Shown in pieces: positions 10,492 through 23,021 of a DNA stretch of 47,073 bases. Origin of the DNA: Affinundibacterium nitidum (GTDB taxonomy: Bacteria; Pseudomonadota; Gammaproteobacteria; Burkholderiales; Burkholderiaceae_D). The notes under the pieces were generated by a model. That model ran no database searches, had not been told where the DNA came from, and worked only from the letters and a program-made list of their open reading frames with translations. The position numbers were made by a program, and so were the translations under genes. Numbering within the stretch: position 1 is the first letter of the stretch; every line of letters starts with the position of its first letter. The stretch is from positions 1 to 47,073 of the forward strand of contig NZ_JACOFZ010000014.1 in the NCBI RefSeq assembly GCF_014284155.1, written 5' to 3'.

Positions 10492-10704
10492 ATGTCCAAC
10501 GAAGAACGCATCATTGATCTTGAAATTCGTCTTGCACGTCAAGATGATTTACTCGATACCTTAAATACCCAAGTCTATCAGCAACAAAAGAAAATCGATG
10601 AGCTCGAAAAGTTATGCACCGCTCTAGCCGGTCGATTGCGAGAAGTTGCAGTCGCTGCGAATCAAAGACAAATGCCTATCGACGAACGCCCTCCGCATTA
10701 CTAA
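10492..10704 (+). CDS. slyX: SlyX family protein
   Basis: 70 aa, the usual SlyX size. It is almost entirely one coiled coil (ERIIDLEIRLARQDDLLDTLN, then QQQKKIDELEKL) and ends in the characteristic PPHY. The function is unknown in all species; it is cytoplasmic. The GRDP-like gene follows 23 bases downstream, so the two are likely cotranscribed. Confidence 0.9.
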   Translation: MSNEERIIDLEIRLARQDDLLDTLNTQVYQQQKKIDELEKLCTALAGRLREVAVAANQRQMPIDERPPHY

Positions 10705-10727
10705 TATTATGGGGTAGGGAGGTCATC

Positions 10728-11441
10728 ATGCCAGTGTTCTTAAGCCTGTTAGTCGTCGGTTCTAGCTTAGTGAGTTTCGTTTTCTGGTTACGTTATCAAC
10801 GTAGCCAGCGGGCTGATTTCATCCGGACTTACATGTTCCCACCTGGCCTGCTCGATAAGTTGGCACAACGGCGCCAAGATTTGCATCTGAAAGACCGTCA
10901 GCTTGTCGCACGTGCCTTGCGTCAGTATTTTTTGGTCTACCTCAAAAGCGGACTTAAACCCGTTGCGATGCCCTCCCAACTCGTCGATGATTTATGGCAC
11001 GAATTTATTCTTTACACTAGGCACTACCAACAGTTTTGCAAGCAAGCGTTTGGTCAATATATGCATCACACTCCCGCTGCAGTTTTGAGCGAAAATCGAC
11101 GCAGCAATGATGCTTTGCGTCGCACATGGTGGTATGCCTGCCTTGAAGAAAATATCAATCCACAGCGAGCCACGCGCCTTCCGCTGTTATTTGCGCTTGA
11201 TGCCAAATATAATTTGAGTGACGGGTTTTACTACCAAGCAGATTGCAGTGCTCTAAGAGCAAATGGCGATGGTACTGCCTATTGCGGAGGCGATTTTTAC
11301 AATGGCAGCAGCTCTGATAGTGACTTTAGTTTTCCATTTAGCAGCGACGGCAGTCATCACAATTCTGGCGACAGTAGTATCGATAGCGCTGACGGTTCAG
11401 GCTGCAATGGGGGTTGTAGTGGTGGCTGCGGGGGCGATTAA
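10728..11441 (+). CDS. GRDP-like (DUF1399-type) membrane-anchored protein with Cys/Gly-rich tail
   Basis: 237 aa. The ATG at 10728 has GGGAGG 7 nt upstream; an in-frame start further upstream overlaps slyX and is rejected. An N-terminal transmembrane helix (about 3-21) precedes a helical domain with DDLWHEFILYTRHYQQFC, which matches the D..WH..I..T..Y..FC pattern of plant-type glycine-rich-domain (GRDP/DUF1399) proteins. The C-terminus (about 175-237) is low-complexity Gly/Ser/Asp ending in CNGGCSGGCGGD, a possible metal-binding or lipidation-like tail. Function unknown. Its stop overlaps the convergent peptidase stop by 4 bases. Confidence 0.75.
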   Translation: MPVFLSLLVVGSSLVSFVFWLRYQRSQRADFIRTYMFPPGLLDKLAQRRQDLHLKDRQLVARALRQYFLVYLKSGLKPVAMPSQLVDDLWHEFILYTRHYQQFCKQAFGQYMHHTPAAVLSENRRSNDALRRTWWYACLEENINPQRATRLPLLFALDAKYNLSDGFYYQADCSALRANGDGTAYCGGDFYNGSSSDSDFSFPFSSDGSHHNSGDSSIDSADGSGCNGGCSGGCGGD

Positions 11442-15498: not shown

Positions 15499-15984
15499 TC
15501 AAACACCGCGATGGTGTTGACGAATACGTTCTCGCCATTCACCGATAGCGGCTAATGCAGCTTGGAATTCACGTTCAATCAAATCGGCCTCATGTGTCGT
15601 AATTACACGGTCCATCATTGCTGCGGAGACGGCCTCGGCCGCATTGCCAACTTGGCTCATTACTCGACAGACCGTTTGTGATAAATCGTCATCGGTAAAT
15701 TCACGAGGTTCAGGTACCAAAAAACCCGCCATACCGTGTCGTGCTAACATCGCATGCAAAGGCAACAAAGCGTCTTTCACACCAGCTTCCTGGCACAAGG
15801 CAACAATCTCAGAAACCTCTTCAAAAGAAGGGTAATGCGTTTCGATTCCGGGCGCCAATTTATTTCTTAGTACATTGACTGACATTTTCAGGTCCGATGC
15901 TAAGGCTTCAAGTCCGCCGGGATACGCTCGTGCGACTTTGTATAAAGCATCATGCTGATTCATATCGGAGTATCTGCGTGTCAT
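15499..15984 (-). CDS. Phage regulatory CII-like (CP76) family protein
   Basis: 161 aa, chosen from the ATG at 15984 because AAGGA lies 7 nt upstream; the ATG 7 codons later has none. The N-terminal half (DALYKVARAYPGGLEALASDL, then VLRNKL) is the CII/CP76 regulator pattern (Pfam PF06892), with a helix-turn-helix-like segment, and is followed by PSFEEVSEIVALC. Such proteins occur in P2-like prophages and as stand-alone genes in Burkholderiales. No phage genes lie nearby, so it is probably a domesticated regulator. It is convergent with the kinase. Confidence 0.8.
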   Translation of the reverse strand: MTRRYSDMNQHDALYKVARAYPGGLEALASDLKMSVNVLRNKLAPGIETHYPSFEEVSEIVALCQEAGVKDALLPLHAMLARHGMAGFLVPEPREFTDDDLSQTVCRVMSQVGNAAEAVSAAMMDRVITTHEADLIEREFQAALAAIGEWRERIRQHHRGV

Positions 15985-16077: not shown

Positions 16078-17001
16078 TTATGCCCGACTGAGCGCAAGCC
16101 TCTGCGTCATTAACTGCAACCAGCGGTCACTGCCATCAACATCGCTTACCACCAATGAAAAATCCGTCACTGTACGCGCAGCGCGCTCAAGAAGTTGAAT
16201 ATCGGCTTCGTGCTGACGTGCAACATGGGGATCTTCCAAAAACAAAATACGACGTATTTTTTTCTCTAGTACCAATTCTGCGATTTGCGCATCTCCACCC
16301 ATAGGCCCCGACAAAAAGGGTTGTACCCAATAGCGGCCAGCGTCAACACCTTTGATACGTTGCGCCAGCTGATTTAACAATGAACCAGTGGTGCCAGTCG
16401 CATAACGATGTTCAAATTGATCAAGAACATGAAAATGCTTCTCAGCGATTTTCAACATTTTCTGTTTCATCGCATCATGCGCAATCAAGGCAATGCTTTC
16501 TTTGGCGAGATCGAAACCACGACCTTCACTTAGGTGCGTGGTGGATCCGCTAGTGAGGGCTTCCAACTCCAACCATTCACAAGCACTCGCCAAGGTTGAT
16601 AAAAATGGCTTACCGTGAATCACACATTGGCGCTTCAATGCAAGAGCCTCAGGAAACACCGACGATGGATCAACTGGATCAATCAAATACACCACTGCGT
16701 CGACCGAGTTATGTGGGTCACTATTGACGACGTGCGCAACCAATTTCATTAATCCACCATCACGGCCATAAGGAAAACGAATATGTGGATCGCAAAGTTG
16801 ACTCAGTCCATGCGAATGAATTGCATCTAAAGTTCTACCCACAACAACCCACTCAGGATTCAGTGCAAGTATCGATTGTTCTCCGCGCTTAAACAATTGC
16901 ACGAGGGCTGAGCCAGCGGCATCTTGATGCGATCGATTAGCAATCAGGCCGATCCGCAGACGCGGTTTTAAAGGACTCACTAGAGCTTCTGGGTTTGCCA
17001 T
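16078..17001 (-). CDS. Tandem methylglyoxal-synthase-fold protein
   Basis: 307 aa from the ATG at 17001; a TTG 12 bases upstream is the alternative. Two methylglyoxal-synthase-like halves are visible. The C-terminal half (about 165-300) keeps the enzyme signatures: IALIAHD (H175, D176), ATGTTG (201-206), SGPMGGD (to D237), and D257 then H264..D267, matching E. coli His19/Asp20, ATGTTG, Asp71 and His98/Asp101. The N-terminal half (about 14-145) follows the same order with altered residues (LIANRS, VVGRTLD, YGRDGG, DPVDPSSVFPE). Family MgsA is about 150 aa and makes methylglyoxal from dihydroxyacetone phosphate. It is the last gene of the HD-GYP/EAL operon, 39 bases after the EAL gene. Confidence 0.8.
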   Translation of the reverse strand: MANPEALVSPLKPRLRIGLIANRSHQDAAGSALVQLFKRGEQSILALNPEWVVVGRTLDAIHSHGLSQLCDPHIRFPYGRDGGLMKLVAHVVNSDPHNSVDAVVYLIDPVDPSSVFPEALALKRQCVIHGKPFLSTLASACEWLELEALTSGSTTHLSEGRGFDLAKESIALIAHDAMKQKMLKIAEKHFHVLDQFEHRYATGTTGSLLNQLAQRIKGVDAGRYWVQPFLSGPMGGDAQIAELVLEKKIRRILFLEDPHVARQHEADIQLLERAARTVTDFSLVVSDVDGSDRWLQLMTQRLALSRA

Positions 17002-17040: not shown

Positions 17041-18345
17041 TCACAACTTATCGTGAAAATCACGATGAAACTTTTCACACCAAGACAATAGCTCAACTGC
17101 TGGCATAGGATGCGCAAAGTAGTATCCTTGAATTTCATCACACCCCATTAGACGTAATGCATTGAGATTTGCTTCTTGTTCGACACCCTCTGCAACCACC
17201 GCCAAACCAAAGTTGTGAGCCAAACTGATAATGCTTTGCACAATTTGTTTATCTTGAGTCGAGTCCATCATTCCTTGCACAAAAACCTTATCGACCTTGA
17301 GTTCGTCAATCGGAAAACGACGCAAGTACGCTAAGGAAGAATAGCCCGTTCCAAAGTCGTCGATGGATAGCTTAAAACCCAAACGCTTCAAATCAAACAA
17401 CAACGCAGTGGTGTGATCAATATCATGAATAAAGGCGCTCTCAGTCACCTCCAAACCTACGGTCGAAGCAGGCAAATTCCACACACTTAATGCTCTCGCC
17501 AAGACTTTGGGGAGTTGTTCCATTCCCAAGAGTCTGGCTGATAAATTGACCCAAACGATTACCTGCAAACCTTTACTGCGCCATTGCGCTGCTTCCTGAA
17601 AAACCTTATTGACGACCTGCATCGTCAGCTGTTCAATTAGACCAAACTGTTCCGCTGTATCGATCAAAATATTGGTTGGTACAGACTGATGGTGATCAGT
17701 TGGCCAGCGGACCAGGGCCTCCACCGATTTCACGCTCTTCGAGCGTAAATCAACCTTAGGTTGATAACGCATTTCCAATGCGTTATTGTCCAGCACTTCT
17801 TTCAGCGCTTGCGGTAAATCATCTGGCCCAGAACGCTCACGCTGCTCCACTCGAGCCAGCTCAAAACGCATATTATTTGACTGCGCATTACGTTGAGCCA
17901 AATCAGCGATACGGAGCAATTCGGTCGCGGCTTGCGCATGTAAAGGAGCGCAAGCGATGCCAATGCTCGGTTGAAAGAACACAGTTTGCGTTTCGATTCT
18001 CAAAGGTGTGTTCAAAGCATTCAGAATTCGATGGCAAGCGAGGACCGCAAGCGCTTCGGAAGACAAATTTGGAAGGAGAAACCAACATTCATTTTCGGTG
18101 GCAAAAACGAATCGATCTTTATCACGCAGGCTGGGTTGCAGGCGATCAGAAAAATGTTGCGCAACAATACTCGCATAGTGGGGATTCAGCAGCGTCTGAA
18201 CTCTATCAGAACGCTGGAGGCTTACGACCAATAGCGCTAGATTTTGTGCATCCGAAACCTCTTGCAATTCCAATTCAAGCAATTGCATAAACTCATTTAC
18301 CGAAGACACCATGCAACTATCACCGGGCATAAATTTTTCCATCAT
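17041..18345 (-). CDS. Degenerate GGDEF-EAL c-di-GMP phosphodiesterase
   Basis: 434 aa, cytoplasmic. The N-terminal GGDEF-like domain (about 15-165) has TENEC (83-87) where GGDEF should be, so it cannot be a cyclase. The RDKD (74-77) in the I-site position is kept. The C-terminal EAL domain (about 175-425) has all the usual catalytic residues: E209 of EAL, N267, E299 or E302, D329-D330 (DDFGTG), K350, E386 and Q406. It should hydrolyse c-di-GMP to pGpG. Its ATG overlaps the HD-GYP stop (ATGA), so translation is coupled; the methylglyoxal-synthase-like gene follows. Lack of membrane segments suggests a soluble regulator. Confidence 0.92.
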   Translation of the reverse strand: MMEKFMPGDSCMVSSVNEFMQLLELELQEVSDAQNLALLVVSLQRSDRVQTLLNPHYASIVAQHFSDRLQPSLRDKDRFVFATENECWFLLPNLSSEALAVLACHRILNALNTPLRIETQTVFFQPSIGIACAPLHAQAATELLRIADLAQRNAQSNNMRFELARVEQRERSGPDDLPQALKEVLDNNALEMRYQPKVDLRSKSVKSVEALVRWPTDHHQSVPTNILIDTAEQFGLIEQLTMQVVNKVFQEAAQWRSKGLQVIVWVNLSARLLGMEQLPKVLARALSVWNLPASTVGLEVTESAFIHDIDHTTALLFDLKRLGFKLSIDDFGTGYSSLAYLRRFPIDELKVDKVFVQGMMDSTQDKQIVQSIISLAHNFGLAVVAEGVEQEANLNALRLMGCDEIQGYYFAHPMPAVELLSWCEKFHRDFHDKL

Positions 18346-20051
18346 GTCGCCTTATAGAAATCGTGACACACTAAGCCATAAGCGCCATCCGGAAGGCCAC
18401 GCATAATACTGATACGCTCTGCATCATCAACTAAGTCCTGCTTGAGTAGATCAAACATGATTGGTTTCTCCAACAGAGTTTTATCACTGCGAGTCAAGAG
18501 TAAGACCTTGGGGTCTAGTCTTCGTACTTTATTGTGCTCCAGAACAATCGCAATTTCCCCGGTAGTTAGTTGGATCAAGCTACCGACTGGAAAGATGCCA
18601 ACAGCCTGCACAAACTCCTCCACCAGAGGCGCATGTAGCTGGCCTTCTGCCATCTTAAATAACTCTTTCATTGCATCAAAGCTCGATAGAGTCTCACTGT
18701 AAGTGCGCTCAGAAGTCATCGCGGCAAAACTATCGGCAATCGCGGCCATACGCCCGAAAATACTAATTTCCCCGCCACTCAAGCCACGTGGATAACCACT
18801 TCCATCCATTCTTTCATGATGTTCATTAATCCCTAATCGAACATTAAAGCTGAGTGGCTCCTTCGATTCCAACAACTGTATGCTTGCATCAACATGTGTT
18901 TGGATTAATTCAGCCTCTTGTTCGGACAATCTCTCCGGCTTACTCAACAAGGCTGGTGGCATTTCCAACTTTCCAACATCAAGTAGTAATCCGATAAAGC
19001 CGAGCTCGACCATCTGCTCCTTATTAAAACCAATATGCCGACCTAAGGTCAGCATATAGACAGAGACTTTTAATGCATGTGACACCACCACCGTATTTTC
19101 AGATCGCATCCTCAGCAACCACATCATTGCCGAAGGGTTAGCGATCACACTTTCCGACAACAACTGCACGGTAGGCAGAACCTCCTTCAACTCTATCGCT
19201 TGCATGTTACGGAGGTCATGCTCGAGTTTGGTAATCAAAGCTCCCGCCTTGGCTACTACCTCGCGAGCACGCACCAGCTCTTCACTCATTGTGGTTTCAA
19301 CGGGATAATGAAACAAGTGAATTTCTTCAGGAACGTATTCAGGACGATGCTTCTTTTTACGTGGCGAAGTCGATCTATTCCATAAAGATCCATGCCAATG
19401 ACTTCCACTTTCATTCCAACGCAACCACTTCTCCCACCAACTCATTTCAAGCAATTCGGGTGTACGCTGTTCATTGCCGTGCACGGCCGCGACGAATTTG
19501 CGCAAAGAAGCTGAGTTTGACTTTTTGATATGAGTGATCGTTGCTTCAGTAACCTGGTCCAATTCAACTTCTTCTGAACTGCTCACTTCACGCTTAACAT
19601 GAAGGTTCGCTTTTACCTTCTGCTGTTGTGCATATTTACGGGCCCGATGGTGGCGCAAGCGTCGCGTTGTTGCAAATTCGGAGCGTGTAAATTTACGATG
19701 AAGCCATGCCACAACCCGCTCTAGCTGATTTGGCTCGGCATCGTAATGTATTTGGATATGTTGCCCTACCGTCCGACGTTGAGCAGGATCACTAGACTCT
19801 GGCGCTTCATGTAAGCGATCAAAAGAAATATCGAGCAAAGCATTGTAATTGCTACGACTAGGGTCAATCACGACCTCTTTCACCAATCCTTGCAAGGTGT
19901 GCAGGTCGAGCTCTTCGCTCAGCAGAAAACCTTGCAACAAAAACGGCGATTGCACCCACGGACGGTCCAATTCCGCTACGAACATGCCAAGACGTAATTC
20001 ATCAATAGAGATACGCAAGGATTCACATAATTGTTGTGAACTATTCGGCAC
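18342..20051 (-). CDS. HD-GYP domain protein with DUF3391-like N-terminus, altered HD motif
   Basis: 569 aa, cytoplasmic. An N-terminal DUF3391-like region (about 10-120: ISIDELRLGMFVAELDRPW) is followed by a long basic and coiled linker (about 120-290) and an HD-GYP domain (about 310-500). The GYP motif is present (HHERMDGSGYP, H411-H412, GYP 419-421), but the HD doublet, normally HDxGK, reads LDVGK (357-361), so the His metal ligand is Leu. Catalysis on c-di-GMP may therefore be impaired or the protein may be a binding or regulatory homologue. First gene of the operon with EAL and the methylglyoxal-synthase-like gene; start codon not supported by a clear ribosome binding site. Confidence 0.9.
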   Translation of the reverse strand: MPNSSQQLCESLRISIDELRLGMFVAELDRPWVQSPFLLQGFLLSEELDLHTLQGLVKEVVIDPSRSNYNALLDISFDRLHEAPESSDPAQRRTVGQHIQIHYDAEPNQLERVVAWLHRKFTRSEFATTRRLRHHRARKYAQQQKVKANLHVKREVSSSEEVELDQVTEATITHIKKSNSASLRKFVAAVHGNEQRTPELLEMSWWEKWLRWNESGSHWHGSLWNRSTSPRKKKHRPEYVPEEIHLFHYPVETTMSEELVRAREVVAKAGALITKLEHDLRNMQAIELKEVLPTVQLLSESVIANPSAMMWLLRMRSENTVVVSHALKVSVYMLTLGRHIGFNKEQMVELGFIGLLLDVGKLEMPPALLSKPERLSEQEAELIQTHVDASIQLLESKEPLSFNVRLGINEHHERMDGSGYPRGLSGGEISIFGRMAAIADSFAAMTSERTYSETLSSFDAMKELFKMAEGQLHAPLVEEFVQAVGIFPVGSLIQLTTGEIAIVLEHNKVRRLDPKVLLLTRSDKTLLEKPIMFDLLKQDLVDDAERISIMRGLPDGAYGLVCHDFYKAT

Positions 20052-20239: not shown

Positions 20240-22189
20240 TTAAGGTTGAGCATCCAATGCTGGCAGTACCTGCACTTTAATGCTACTGACTTCATTACCC
20301 GCGCGGTACAAGCGATGGTTTGCCTTAATAAAATCTGATTCCTTGGCCTCAAAAATATTCTCCACAAAATTTTGCGGATTTCTATCAATGAAAGGGAACC
20401 AAGAAGATTGAATTTGGATCATGATTTTATGGCCACGTTGAAAGGTATGCATCACGTCATTGATGGCAAATTTAACCTTCGTCGGCTGGTTCGGTTCGAA
20501 AGCCTTTGGATGCTCGAAACTTTCACGGAAACGAGCTCTGAATGGTTCGCCGCGCACCAAGGTTTGCTGTGCACCACGGTTCGACTCACCAGGTAAAGTA
20601 TCCATCTTGTTTGGATTCACATCAATCAGTTTCACAACAAAGTCGGCATCGGTACCGGTGGTACTAACGATCAAGTTAGCTTCCAGTGGCCCGGCAAACG
20701 TAATATCGCGATCGAGCACTTCCGTTTGATAGGTCAACACATCAGGACGCGTACTCGCAAATCTCTGATCGGCCGCGACATATTGATTACTCCAGCGATT
20801 GGTAATTTCCGTCGTATAAGGAACCGGTTTTGCTGGGTCACTAACGTACTCATCAAAAGCGGGCGAGGCGGCAGAGGGCATCTCGAAGCTGAGTTTTCCA
20901 TTAGCATGGAAGTACAAGGCCTTGTTTTGGGTATTTGCAGGAGGCCATGTGTCGAAATTACGCCAACGATTTGCGCCTGTTTCAAATATCCATGCTTCTG
21001 AAAGCGCCGGTTTATCACCACCTTTCAAATGATGCTTGAAGAACGCAAATTCAATTGTTTGATAGTTAAGTGATGTTTTGAATCCAAAATTTGCATCACC
21101 AACTTTTTCACCTGTAGTGCTTTGCCAACCGCCATGAACCCATGGTCCAATTACTAAGGTATTGCTGATACCCGGATTATTTTTTTCGATCGCCTTATAG
21201 GTTTGCAAAGGTCCATACAAATCTTCAGTGTCATACCAACCACCAACGGTCATGACGGCCGCCTTAATATTTTTCAAATGTGGCAGCAAATTTTTCGCTT
21301 GCCAATATGCGTCGTAGTTTGGATGTTGAGTCAACTCATTCCAAAATGGAATAGCGCCTTTGAGGTACTTCGCATTCGCATTTCCAAGTGGGCCGAGTTC
21401 TAGAAAAAACTGATAGGCGTCTGGCGTTCCCCAGTCAAAAGCGGGCTCATTATTCACATCGGTAGGCTGTGGCCTCGGTTTGCCAAAACCGCTAAAAAAG
21501 CTGAATGCAAGTTGCACATTAAATGCGCCATTTCTATGCATATCATCGCCTCTAAACCAATCAGCAATCGGAGCTTGAGGAGACACCGCTTTCAAAGCGG
21601 GATGTGAATCAATCGCCCCTGCTGAAGTATAAAAGCCAGGATAAGAAATACCCCATTGCCCTACTTTGCCGTTGTTGCCTGTAACGTGATTAATCATCCA
21701 TTCGATGCTATCGAAAGTATCACTACTTTCATCGACGTCAGCCTTACTCGTTTTCTTCGCGATGTGAGGGCGCATATTAACGAACTCACCCTCGGACATA
21801 TTCTTACCACGCACATCTTGGAAAGCAAAAATAAATCCTTCTTTTTCAAACTCAGCACTCGGTCCAAGACGGGTTTTGTATTTCTCAGCGCCATAAGGTG
21901 CGACTGTATATGGGGTGCGCACTAACAAAATTGGATAACGCTTAGTCACACTCGCATCGTTAGGAACATAGATCGAAGTGAACAATAGTTTTCCGTCCCG
22001 TGCAGGAATACGATATTCAAATTTGCTATAGTTCTTACGAATGTATTCGGCGCGCTGGGTCGCAGCGTCTTTTTCATCTGCAACGGATATAGCATTCAGC
22101 ACATTCGTACTGGCGAAGGCGTTTATTGTAGGTAGCGATGTGCCACAAAATGCAATTACTACCGCAAAACTGATGGAGCTCAATTTCAT
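20240..22189 (-). CDS. CocE/NonD family hydrolase (X-Pro dipeptidyl-peptidase-like)
   Basis: 649 aa from the ATG at 22189, which has AAGGAT upstream; the longer frame to 22231 is rejected because the signal peptide (1-26, ending NAFA) would be internal. The S15/CocE alpha/beta-hydrolase domain has the nucleophile Ser182 in GQWGISYPGF, followed by a typical GPWVHGGW (catalytic-His region). A C-terminal beta-sandwich (about 420-640) is the family's X-Pro dipeptidyl-peptidase C-terminal domain. It is a secreted serine hydrolase for esters, amides or X-Pro peptides; substrate unknown. It stands alone, with its own terminator. Confidence 0.9.
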   Translation of the reverse strand: MKLSSISFAVVIAFCGTSLPTINAFASTNVLNAISVADEKDAATQRAEYIRKNYSKFEYRIPARDGKLLFTSIYVPNDASVTKRYPILLVRTPYTVAPYGAEKYKTRLGPSAEFEKEGFIFAFQDVRGKNMSEGEFVNMRPHIAKKTSKADVDESSDTFDSIEWMINHVTGNNGKVGQWGISYPGFYTSAGAIDSHPALKAVSPQAPIADWFRGDDMHRNGAFNVQLAFSFFSGFGKPRPQPTDVNNEPAFDWGTPDAYQFFLELGPLGNANAKYLKGAIPFWNELTQHPNYDAYWQAKNLLPHLKNIKAAVMTVGGWYDTEDLYGPLQTYKAIEKNNPGISNTLVIGPWVHGGWQSTTGEKVGDANFGFKTSLNYQTIEFAFFKHHLKGGDKPALSEAWIFETGANRWRNFDTWPPANTQNKALYFHANGKLSFEMPSAASPAFDEYVSDPAKPVPYTTEITNRWSNQYVAADQRFASTRPDVLTYQTEVLDRDITFAGPLEANLIVSTTGTDADFVVKLIDVNPNKMDTLPGESNRGAQQTLVRGEPFRARFRESFEHPKAFEPNQPTKVKFAINDVMHTFQRGHKIMIQIQSSWFPFIDRNPQNFVENIFEAKESDFIKANHRLYRAGNEVSSIKVQVLPALDAQP

Positions 22190-22307
22190 AGGAAGAAATC
22201 CTTTAAAGGAAAGTCGGTCGATGCTTACCATGTGAAAAATCTACGCTAATAATGAGTCAAAAAAAGCGCACTCCTTTTTTGACAAAGCGAACAATATAAA
22301 GTTCGAC

Positions 22308-23021
22308 TTAATCGTCTGCTGTCGGGTCAAAATCAGGCAATTCAGCATCGACCTGCACGATCGTATCGTAACCCTGAGCCCTTGCTTTTTGTAAGGCATC
22401 ACTGGCACGGCTCAACACCTTATCAACCGCATCGCCTGGGGCATTTGGAGTCAACCCGGTACTAAAACTAATCTGCAAACCAGGTGCAAGATCAGTCCAG
22501 GCATAGGCTTGCATGCGCGCTTTTAAGCGCTTAATCGCAACCAGACTTTGATCTAACCAAGTGGTTGGCATCACGATAGCAAATTCCGTTGCCCCGACGC
22601 GGCCAAATGAATCGAGGCTACGCAAAACCGCTCCGGCCTCATTGGTGAGTACTTGCAAAATGCGTTTAGTCACATCTTGACCATATTGCTCCATTATCTC
22701 AGGCAAGCGATCCACCCCAATTAATGCCACGGTAAAAGTGTGGCCAGTCCGCTTCGAGCGCTGCAATTCATTGTCGAGTCTCTCAATAAATGTGTTCCGG
22801 TTCAAAGCGCCTGTAAGGTGATCGTGAGTCGCCAAAGTTTGCAACTGATTCATCACGGCCTCAAGTTTCGGCAATACGTCATCGCGTATTCCCCCCTCCT
22901 TGATCTGAGCAATCGCCTCCAACAATTGCTGCTGCGCGAAGGGTATCGTCTGTTTAGTATTTCTTGCCATATGCATCGCTTTAACGGTAGTGGCGACAAA
23001 ATTAAGGGAACGCAAACTCAT
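22308..23021 (-). CDS. Degenerate GGDEF protein with retained RxxD motif
   Basis: 237 aa, no signal or membrane segment. After a short helical N-terminus (about 20-62) comes a GGDEF-type domain (about 63-225: THDHLTGALNRNTFIERL). The signature is GATEF (143-147) instead of GGDEF, and the metal-binding DxD..ND region reads IGVDRLPEIME, so cyclase activity is unlikely. The I-site motif RSLD (134-137) sits exactly five residues before the signature, as in true cyclases, making a c-di-GMP effector role plausible. Alternative starts at codon 16 or 18 exist, with no clear ribosome binding site at any. The hydrolase gene lies downstream on the same strand. Confidence 0.85.
   Translation of the reverse strand: MSLRSLNFVATTVKAMHMARNTKQTIPFAQQQLLEAIAQIKEGGIRDDVLPKLEAVMNQLQTLATHDHLTGALNRNTFIERLDNELQRSKRTGHTFTVALIGVDRLPEIMEQYGQDVTKRILQVLTNEAGAVLRSLDSFGRVGATEFAIVMPTTWLDQSLVAIKRLKARMQAYAWTDLAPGLQISFSTGLTPNAPGDAVDKVLSRASDALQKARAQGYDTIVQVDAELPDFDPTADD

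Follow-up and report, generated by a model that had tools for sequence, protein, structure and literature searches.

Methylglyoxal synthase (MGS; MgsA, EC 4.2.3.3; PRK05234 / TIGR00160; PDB 1b93, 1wo8, 6f2c) is known as a hexamer and forms the entry to the methylglyoxal bypass, a route that bacteria must gate because its product is toxic. For the Escherichia coli enzyme, a published account (PMC1877815) names H19, G66, D71, D91, H98 and D101 as important residues, with H19, D71 and H98 ascribed to catalysis and D91, D101 and G66 to the substrate. The same fold, deprived of MGS activity and joined to a catalytic unit, occurs as the MGS-like allosteric domain of carbamoyl phosphate synthetases (CPS; CarB, CPS1); in human CPS1 this domain is described as binding N-acetylglutamate, the on/off switch of the enzyme (PMC4655335). 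Here we examine a tandem MGS-fold gene, P0001, located in a 47,073-nucleotide stretch of the Affinundibacterium nitidum contig NZ_JACOFZ010000014.1 (referred to below as the window).

The MgsA fold is common to both halves of the P0001 product. Unlike MgsA, a single domain of about 150 aa, the protein has two domains and twice the length (307 aa), with one half devoid of the catalytic residues; its C-terminal half (C-half) also differs in a longer loop before SGPMGGD and in the lack of the segment that carries P115. The N-terminal half (N-half) resembles the CPS domain as an MGS fold that is linked to a catalytic unit and probably lacks MGS activity itself, but it precedes an MGS catalytic domain and no CPS domain is reported, so that the likeness is one of architecture only. 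The IMP cyclohydrolase domain of PurH is more distant, and tandem universal stress proteins (UspE) are alike in shape alone, being members of a different family with 10% identity. In the open-access literature, judged largely by title, no description of a two-domain MGS form was found. Taking the sequence comparisons below together, we propose, with a probability of about 0.6, that the protein is a two-domain MGS in which a catalytic C-half is combined with a regulatory pseudo-enzyme N-half that would bind an anionic, phosphate-bearing metabolite.

Domain organization and the C-terminal catalytic site

The tandem MGS-fold architecture put forward in the original prediction is borne out by profile matches and by the predicted full-length structure, which consists of two MGS domains (predicted template modelling score, pTM, 0.88). 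All the elements quoted there are present, namely ANRS (21-24), VGRTLD (54-59), YGRDGG (78-83) and SSVFPE (113-118) in the N-half, and H175/D176, ATGTTG (201-206), SGPMGGD (231-237) and H264/D267 in the C-half. The MGS equivalog model of NCBIfam, PRK05234.1, gives the tandem protein 106 bits, above its cut-off of 84. The Pfam MGS match is confined to the second half and is sub-threshold (17.6 bits; cut-off 24.1), and neither the Pfam nor the NCBIfam scan found any domain besides MGS.

When compared with the PDB, the C-half matches MGS chains at E 1e-15. Its description as active-looking agrees with a complete MGS active site in the sequence, comprising H175, D176, K179, T202/T204/T205, S231, G232, D237, D257, H264, D267 and R273. 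The equivalents of the six important E. coli residues (H175, G232, D237, D257, H264, D267) are kept in 111/111 distinct sequences, and the same holds for those of T45, T47, T48, S65 and R107; the 111 are what remains of 113 rows once identical cores are merged, and among the rows some genomes occur twice and close relatives are numerous. With this catalytic set, the C-half probably carries out the MgsA reaction, the conversion of dihydroxyacetone phosphate (DHAP) to methylglyoxal and phosphate, by way of the standard active site. A search of the A. nitidum genome (99.69% complete) found no second MGS; glyoxalase I is present over its cut-off.

Remodelled pocket of the N-terminal half

The relationship of the N-half to MGS is more distant. 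Searched alone against 18,950 NCBIfam models, its sole match is the same MGS model, at a weak level (16.8 bits, E 0.0043). Among 177,635 PDB sequences, the N-half profile ranks MGS first (best E 2e-4); of eight matches with E no greater than 10, six are MGS, and the five MGS matches after the best one lie at E 0.02-0.87. Structure prediction, suggested earlier as a check on this half, points in the same direction, as the N-half model matches MGS chains first. Pfam returns one chance-level domain (E 0.17) and nothing over cut-off.

The alignment of 24 N-halves to E. coli MgsA permits a position-by-position comparison. Two catalytic positions are replaced: that of D71 is Leu in 111/111 sequences, and that of H98 is variable (I/T/V/L/N/S). 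The H19 position is not conserved (H in 12, Q in 8 and R in 2 of 24) and falls within an uncertain part of the alignment, at H19/D20, where the first strand is followed by a lengthened loop; the same loop holds R23 (109/111) and H25 (110/111). Further changes are T45 to V/I/L, T47 to R (21/24), S65 to Y (21/24) and P67 to R (22/24). On the other hand, G66, G69, G70, D91, P92, R107 and P115 are each kept in 24/24, G46 and T48 in 23/24, and the D101 position appears as E in 23/24. The N-half also possesses near-invariant motifs of its own (GRTxD, RFPYGRxGGLM, DPVDxSSxFPEAxALKRQ and HxKPFLST). Consequently, the recognition positions are kept, the catalytic ones are lost and positive charge is gained.

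This pattern is consistent with an N-half of MGS descent in which catalytic D71 and H98, and probably H19, have disappeared, but in which the pocket scaffold persists together with the recognition positions G66, T48, D91, D101 as Glu and R107. The arginines R56 and R80, and probably R23, are gains of this half, for which binding of an anionic ligand is suggested by the sequence. The N-half most likely binds a phosphate-bearing, anionic metabolite but leaves it chemically unchanged, and would set the activity or the assembly of the C-domain as a built-in regulatory pseudo-enzyme domain. A putative sensing of carbon or phosphate status by the N-half is plausible.

Conservation, selection and origin

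The N-half had been described as degenerate, a view at odds with its own near-invariant motifs and with a purifying selection as strong as that in the C-half. Over 22 close pairs, the ratio of nonsynonymous to synonymous substitution rates (dN/dS) has a median of 0.052 in the N-half against 0.0615 in the C-half; these are the pairs with usable synonymous distances among 28 computed, and the pair of the window gene itself lies outside this set, its synonymous sites being saturated. Positions at least 99% identical number 30/136 in the N-half and 43/137 in the C-half. A degenerating duplicate is ruled out by this comparable dN/dS and conservation. The losses of the two halves are complementary, the ancestral piece missing from one not being the piece missing from the other, as would be anticipated for halves that now work together.

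These same features bear on the alternative that the N-half is a second enzyme, which would catalyze another reaction on the same scaffold within a bifunctional protein (acting on DHAP, methylglyoxal or a related phosphate compound). The purifying selection and the unequal losses would suit it, as would the near-invariant and potentially catalytic H25, D59, R75, Y78, D111, S113/S114, K123 and H129, needless in a mere scaffold. It is nevertheless unlikely, since this half no longer has H98 or the MGS base D71, its family matches are limited to weak MGS and the chance-level Pfam domain, and the retention of D91 and G66, with Glu at the D101 position, fits the binding of a similar ligand.

The location of the conserved positions is also informative. 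Of the 30 N-half positions, 18 fall among the 33 active-site-equivalent loop positions, where 7.3 would be expected, and 0/10,000 random draws reach as high a value, although the loop boundaries were set after the alignment was seen, which favours this test. Such a peak in the loops speaks against the N-half being a structural pseudo-subunit that takes the place of alternate protomers in the MGS hexamer and has no ligand of its own. We consider that arrangement decidedly improbable, even if the hexameric state of MGS, the full predicted model with its two MGS domains and the retention of the P115 segment in the N-half, with its loss from the C-half, are in line with it.

In the tree, the N-halves and the C-halves each form one group (100/100 in both cases), and the C-halves branch among 11/13 single-domain MGS from the same order (98/99 fork). 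The placement of the N-halves is untrustworthy, because the tree was built on 132 columns and contains long branches. A recent internal duplication is not supported, considering the two separate groups and the position of the C-halves among single-domain MGS.

Several observations weigh against the proposed two-domain enzyme. The stricter MGS model TIGR00160 gives 94 bits, under its cut-off of 146.9, and a direct comparison of the N-half and C-half profiles gives a weak match (4%, E 0.01). The C-half has lost the segment that follows R107 in canonical MGS and that presumably carries allosteric signals between subunits, and its activity may differ for this reason; P115 is found in 0/24 C-halves, 24/24 N-halves and 19/23 canonical MGS. 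Furthermore, the A. nitidum genome has no PfpI over cut-off, methylglyoxal-type neighbours (glpD/glpK, PfpI, VOC) accompany the gene in a minority of loci only, and whether a genome has the tandem or the single form largely follows its genus, so that the mutual exclusion of the two forms is not independent per genome. With these points included, the regulatory pseudo-enzyme remains the preferred interpretation of the N-half. There are roughly even odds for the broader proposal that this half represents an MGS-fold domain of a functionally new type with a polyanion site (GRTxD, PYGRxGGLM, DPVDxSSxFPEA), serving either as a sensor of a phosphorylated metabolite that gates a toxic product or as the catalyst of a second pathway reaction, and that the resulting self-regulated or bifunctional enzyme displaced MgsA in much of Oxalobacteraceae and is present in further families. 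If an MGS copy did become a dedicated and strictly conserved partner, non-catalytic or otherwise catalytic, it would show an allosteric domain evolving from an enzyme's own relative, and the tandem MGS would offer a ready system for testing such evolution.

Distribution of the tandem form

Among 295 genomes of the family, 204 match the protein, 94 with the tandem form and 110 at single-domain strength only; in the latter, among the matches listed, it is the C-half region that is covered. One of the 94 tandem genes (G111) is broken. A further match occurs in 6/94 tandem genomes and is of the C-half type in five among the matches listed (one with two stops); that of the sixth, G127, is not among them. 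The order sample (n = 399) contains 17 tandem and 31 single genomes and none with both. In the class sample (n = 369), 6 genomes are tandem, A. nitidum included, and 9 are single, and two tandem-bearing families outside the order are added (f63 and f216). The tandem form stands in for single-domain MgsA in most genomes having it; this exclusion is supportive rather than proof, because the three samples are not mutually exclusive and related genomes do not count as independent cases. A remnant of a second tandem gene was observed in one genome (G153, contig 40, 9644-10000), covering N-half residues 22-134 with 50% identity and three stops.

In a phylum sample of 398 genomes, the N-half profile matched 13, of which 11 strongly. 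Eight of the strong matches are known tandem proteins and three lie in open reading frames (ORFs) of 299-342 aa; of the two weak ones, one falls within the ORF of a single-domain MGS and the other within a frame interrupted by four stops. No stand-alone N-half was seen in these 398 genomes, strong matches being confined to tandem-length ORFs. The phage collection gave 0/19, and in the plasmid collection a single one of 59 matching records, from Acidovorax (49%), reaches a query coverage of 80% or more. This Acidovorax plasmid relative carries the plain annotation "methylglyoxal synthase", a label that can conceal a domain for which neither Pfam nor NCBIfam has a dedicated model. The most divergent tandem MGS belongs to a member of family f216 (L159/L183; L183 gene 7962-9593, plus strand); it has a longer C-terminus and adjoins edd, and its protein gives no Pfam match at E 0.01, MGS halves included.

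Genomic neighbourhood

In the window, the tandem gene lies beside genes of cyclic di-GMP (c-di-GMP) turnover (Table 1). The order HD-GYP, EAL, MGS stated in the original prediction is correct, while the tandem gene may not be the last of the series, because a same-strand CP76-family gene begins 93 bp on.

Table 1. Coordinates of the tandem gene, its two domains and the adjacent genes in the window
Feature	Position	Strand	Remarks
Tandem methylglyoxal-synthase-fold gene, P0001	16078..17001	minus	open frame, 307 aa
N-terminal MGS-fold domain	16552..16962	minus	residues 14-150
C-terminal MGS domain	16093..16506	minus	about residues 166-303
GGDEF-EAL protein	17041..18345	minus	directly upstream of tandem gene, 39-bp gap
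DUF3391/HD-GYP protein	18342..20051	minus	overlaps EAL gene by 4 bp
CP76/YmfL-type regulatory protein	15499..15984	minus	93 bp downstream of tandem gene

This tight order would suit a protein linking the turnover of c-di-GMP with carbon or phosphate status. In 80 loci, an EAL gene upstream (within 6.5 kb, same strand) occurs in 29: in 22/22 named Undibacterium-type loci (Undibacterium, Affinundibacterium, Cognatundibacterium), in 7/17 loci without a genus name and in 0/41 loci of other named genera, four of the latter having less than 3.2 kb of upstream sequence, one of these four only 144 bases. Within the 29 linked loci, 14 show a gap of 901-2427 bp that in every case (14/14) contains an opposite-strand gene, with SEL1-type repeats as judged by eye; the remaining 15 have an EAL-MGS gap below 300 bp, as in the window, the value for L053 being taken from a 214-bp BLAST gap, as its EAL frame is not followable. 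Elsewhere, Herbaspirillum L074 carries an EAL-HDOD gene just downstream on the opposite strand, L076 an upstream HD-GYP-profile match with adjoining response-regulator matches, L103 and L079 a downstream EAL match, and L115 HD-GYP and GGDEF matches several kb off.

The tandem form does not, then, always follow HD-GYP/EAL genes, and the operon linkage whose absence in relatives had been named as a refuting condition is missing outside Undibacterium-type loci. Co-transcription with them is not conserved, and the lineage-confined EAL gene together with the intervening opposite-strand gene rules out a c-di-GMP module as a general explanation. Coupling to c-di-GMP turnover, for which the close gene order, the upstream EAL gene of the 29 linked loci and the Herbaspirillum EAL-HDOD gene may be cited, is very improbable, given in addition that MGS is the only domain found in the tandem protein and that the open-access literature on MGS and c-di-GMP, by titles and abstract starts, does not concern it. 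The c-di-GMP genes are probably a lineage-specific neighbourhood, just neighbours. Promoter-like sites (8 vs 11.4 in shuffles) and terminator-like sites (11 vs 8.6) are not or hardly above shuffles, and for this reason no inference is built on them.

The neighbours found in other lineages are of a different kind. In Janthinobacterium (3/3 loci; families assigned for L093), the tandem gene adjoins glpD, glpK and a DJ-1/PfpI protein. PfpI lies upstream on the same strand in 8/80 loci, at 43-110 bp from the aligned tandem start in seven of them; in the eighth, from Massilia, where only 52 residues matched, the distance is 339 bp. The P. aeruginosa PfpI has been shown to turn methylglyoxal into lactate (PMC11987610). 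Repeated gain of this neighbour is not claimed, as well-supported branches force only 1 of the 5 label changes on the tree. A VOC/glyoxalase-superfamily protein is encoded no more than 25 bp downstream of the tandem gene in L176, and the neighbour in L183 is phosphogluconate dehydratase. In L184, two neighbours belong to a pathway that yields DHAP: a 3-oxo-tetronate kinase, which exceeds its cut-off, and a 3-oxo-tetronate-4-phosphate decarboxylase-like protein, which falls slightly short of its own (233 vs 250 bits). No methylglyoxal-related neighbour was recognised by eye in Collimonas L101, Herminiimonas L117 and others, and in four loci of family f4 (L171-L174) the tandem gene comes after two genes of the iron-sulphur cluster operon, hscA and fdx.

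A match to the CP76 gene occurs in 50/123 loci, and many Undibacterium-type loci have it close to the tandem gene. In the window HD-GYP protein, the DUF3391 match is stretched across residues 13-290 for a 136-position profile, so that this domain seems to hold a long insertion; the L057 form (428 aa) is without such a stretch. Two further genes, for a CocE/NonD-type hydrolase and a GGDEF protein, precede the HD-GYP gene on its own strand (20240-23021, minus strand), an order kept in several Undibacterium-type loci; the best whole-family match of this GGDEF protein is SiaD, below cut-off. Finally, the product of an ORF at 10614-11441 (plus strand) ends in a Cys/Gly/Ser-rich tail.
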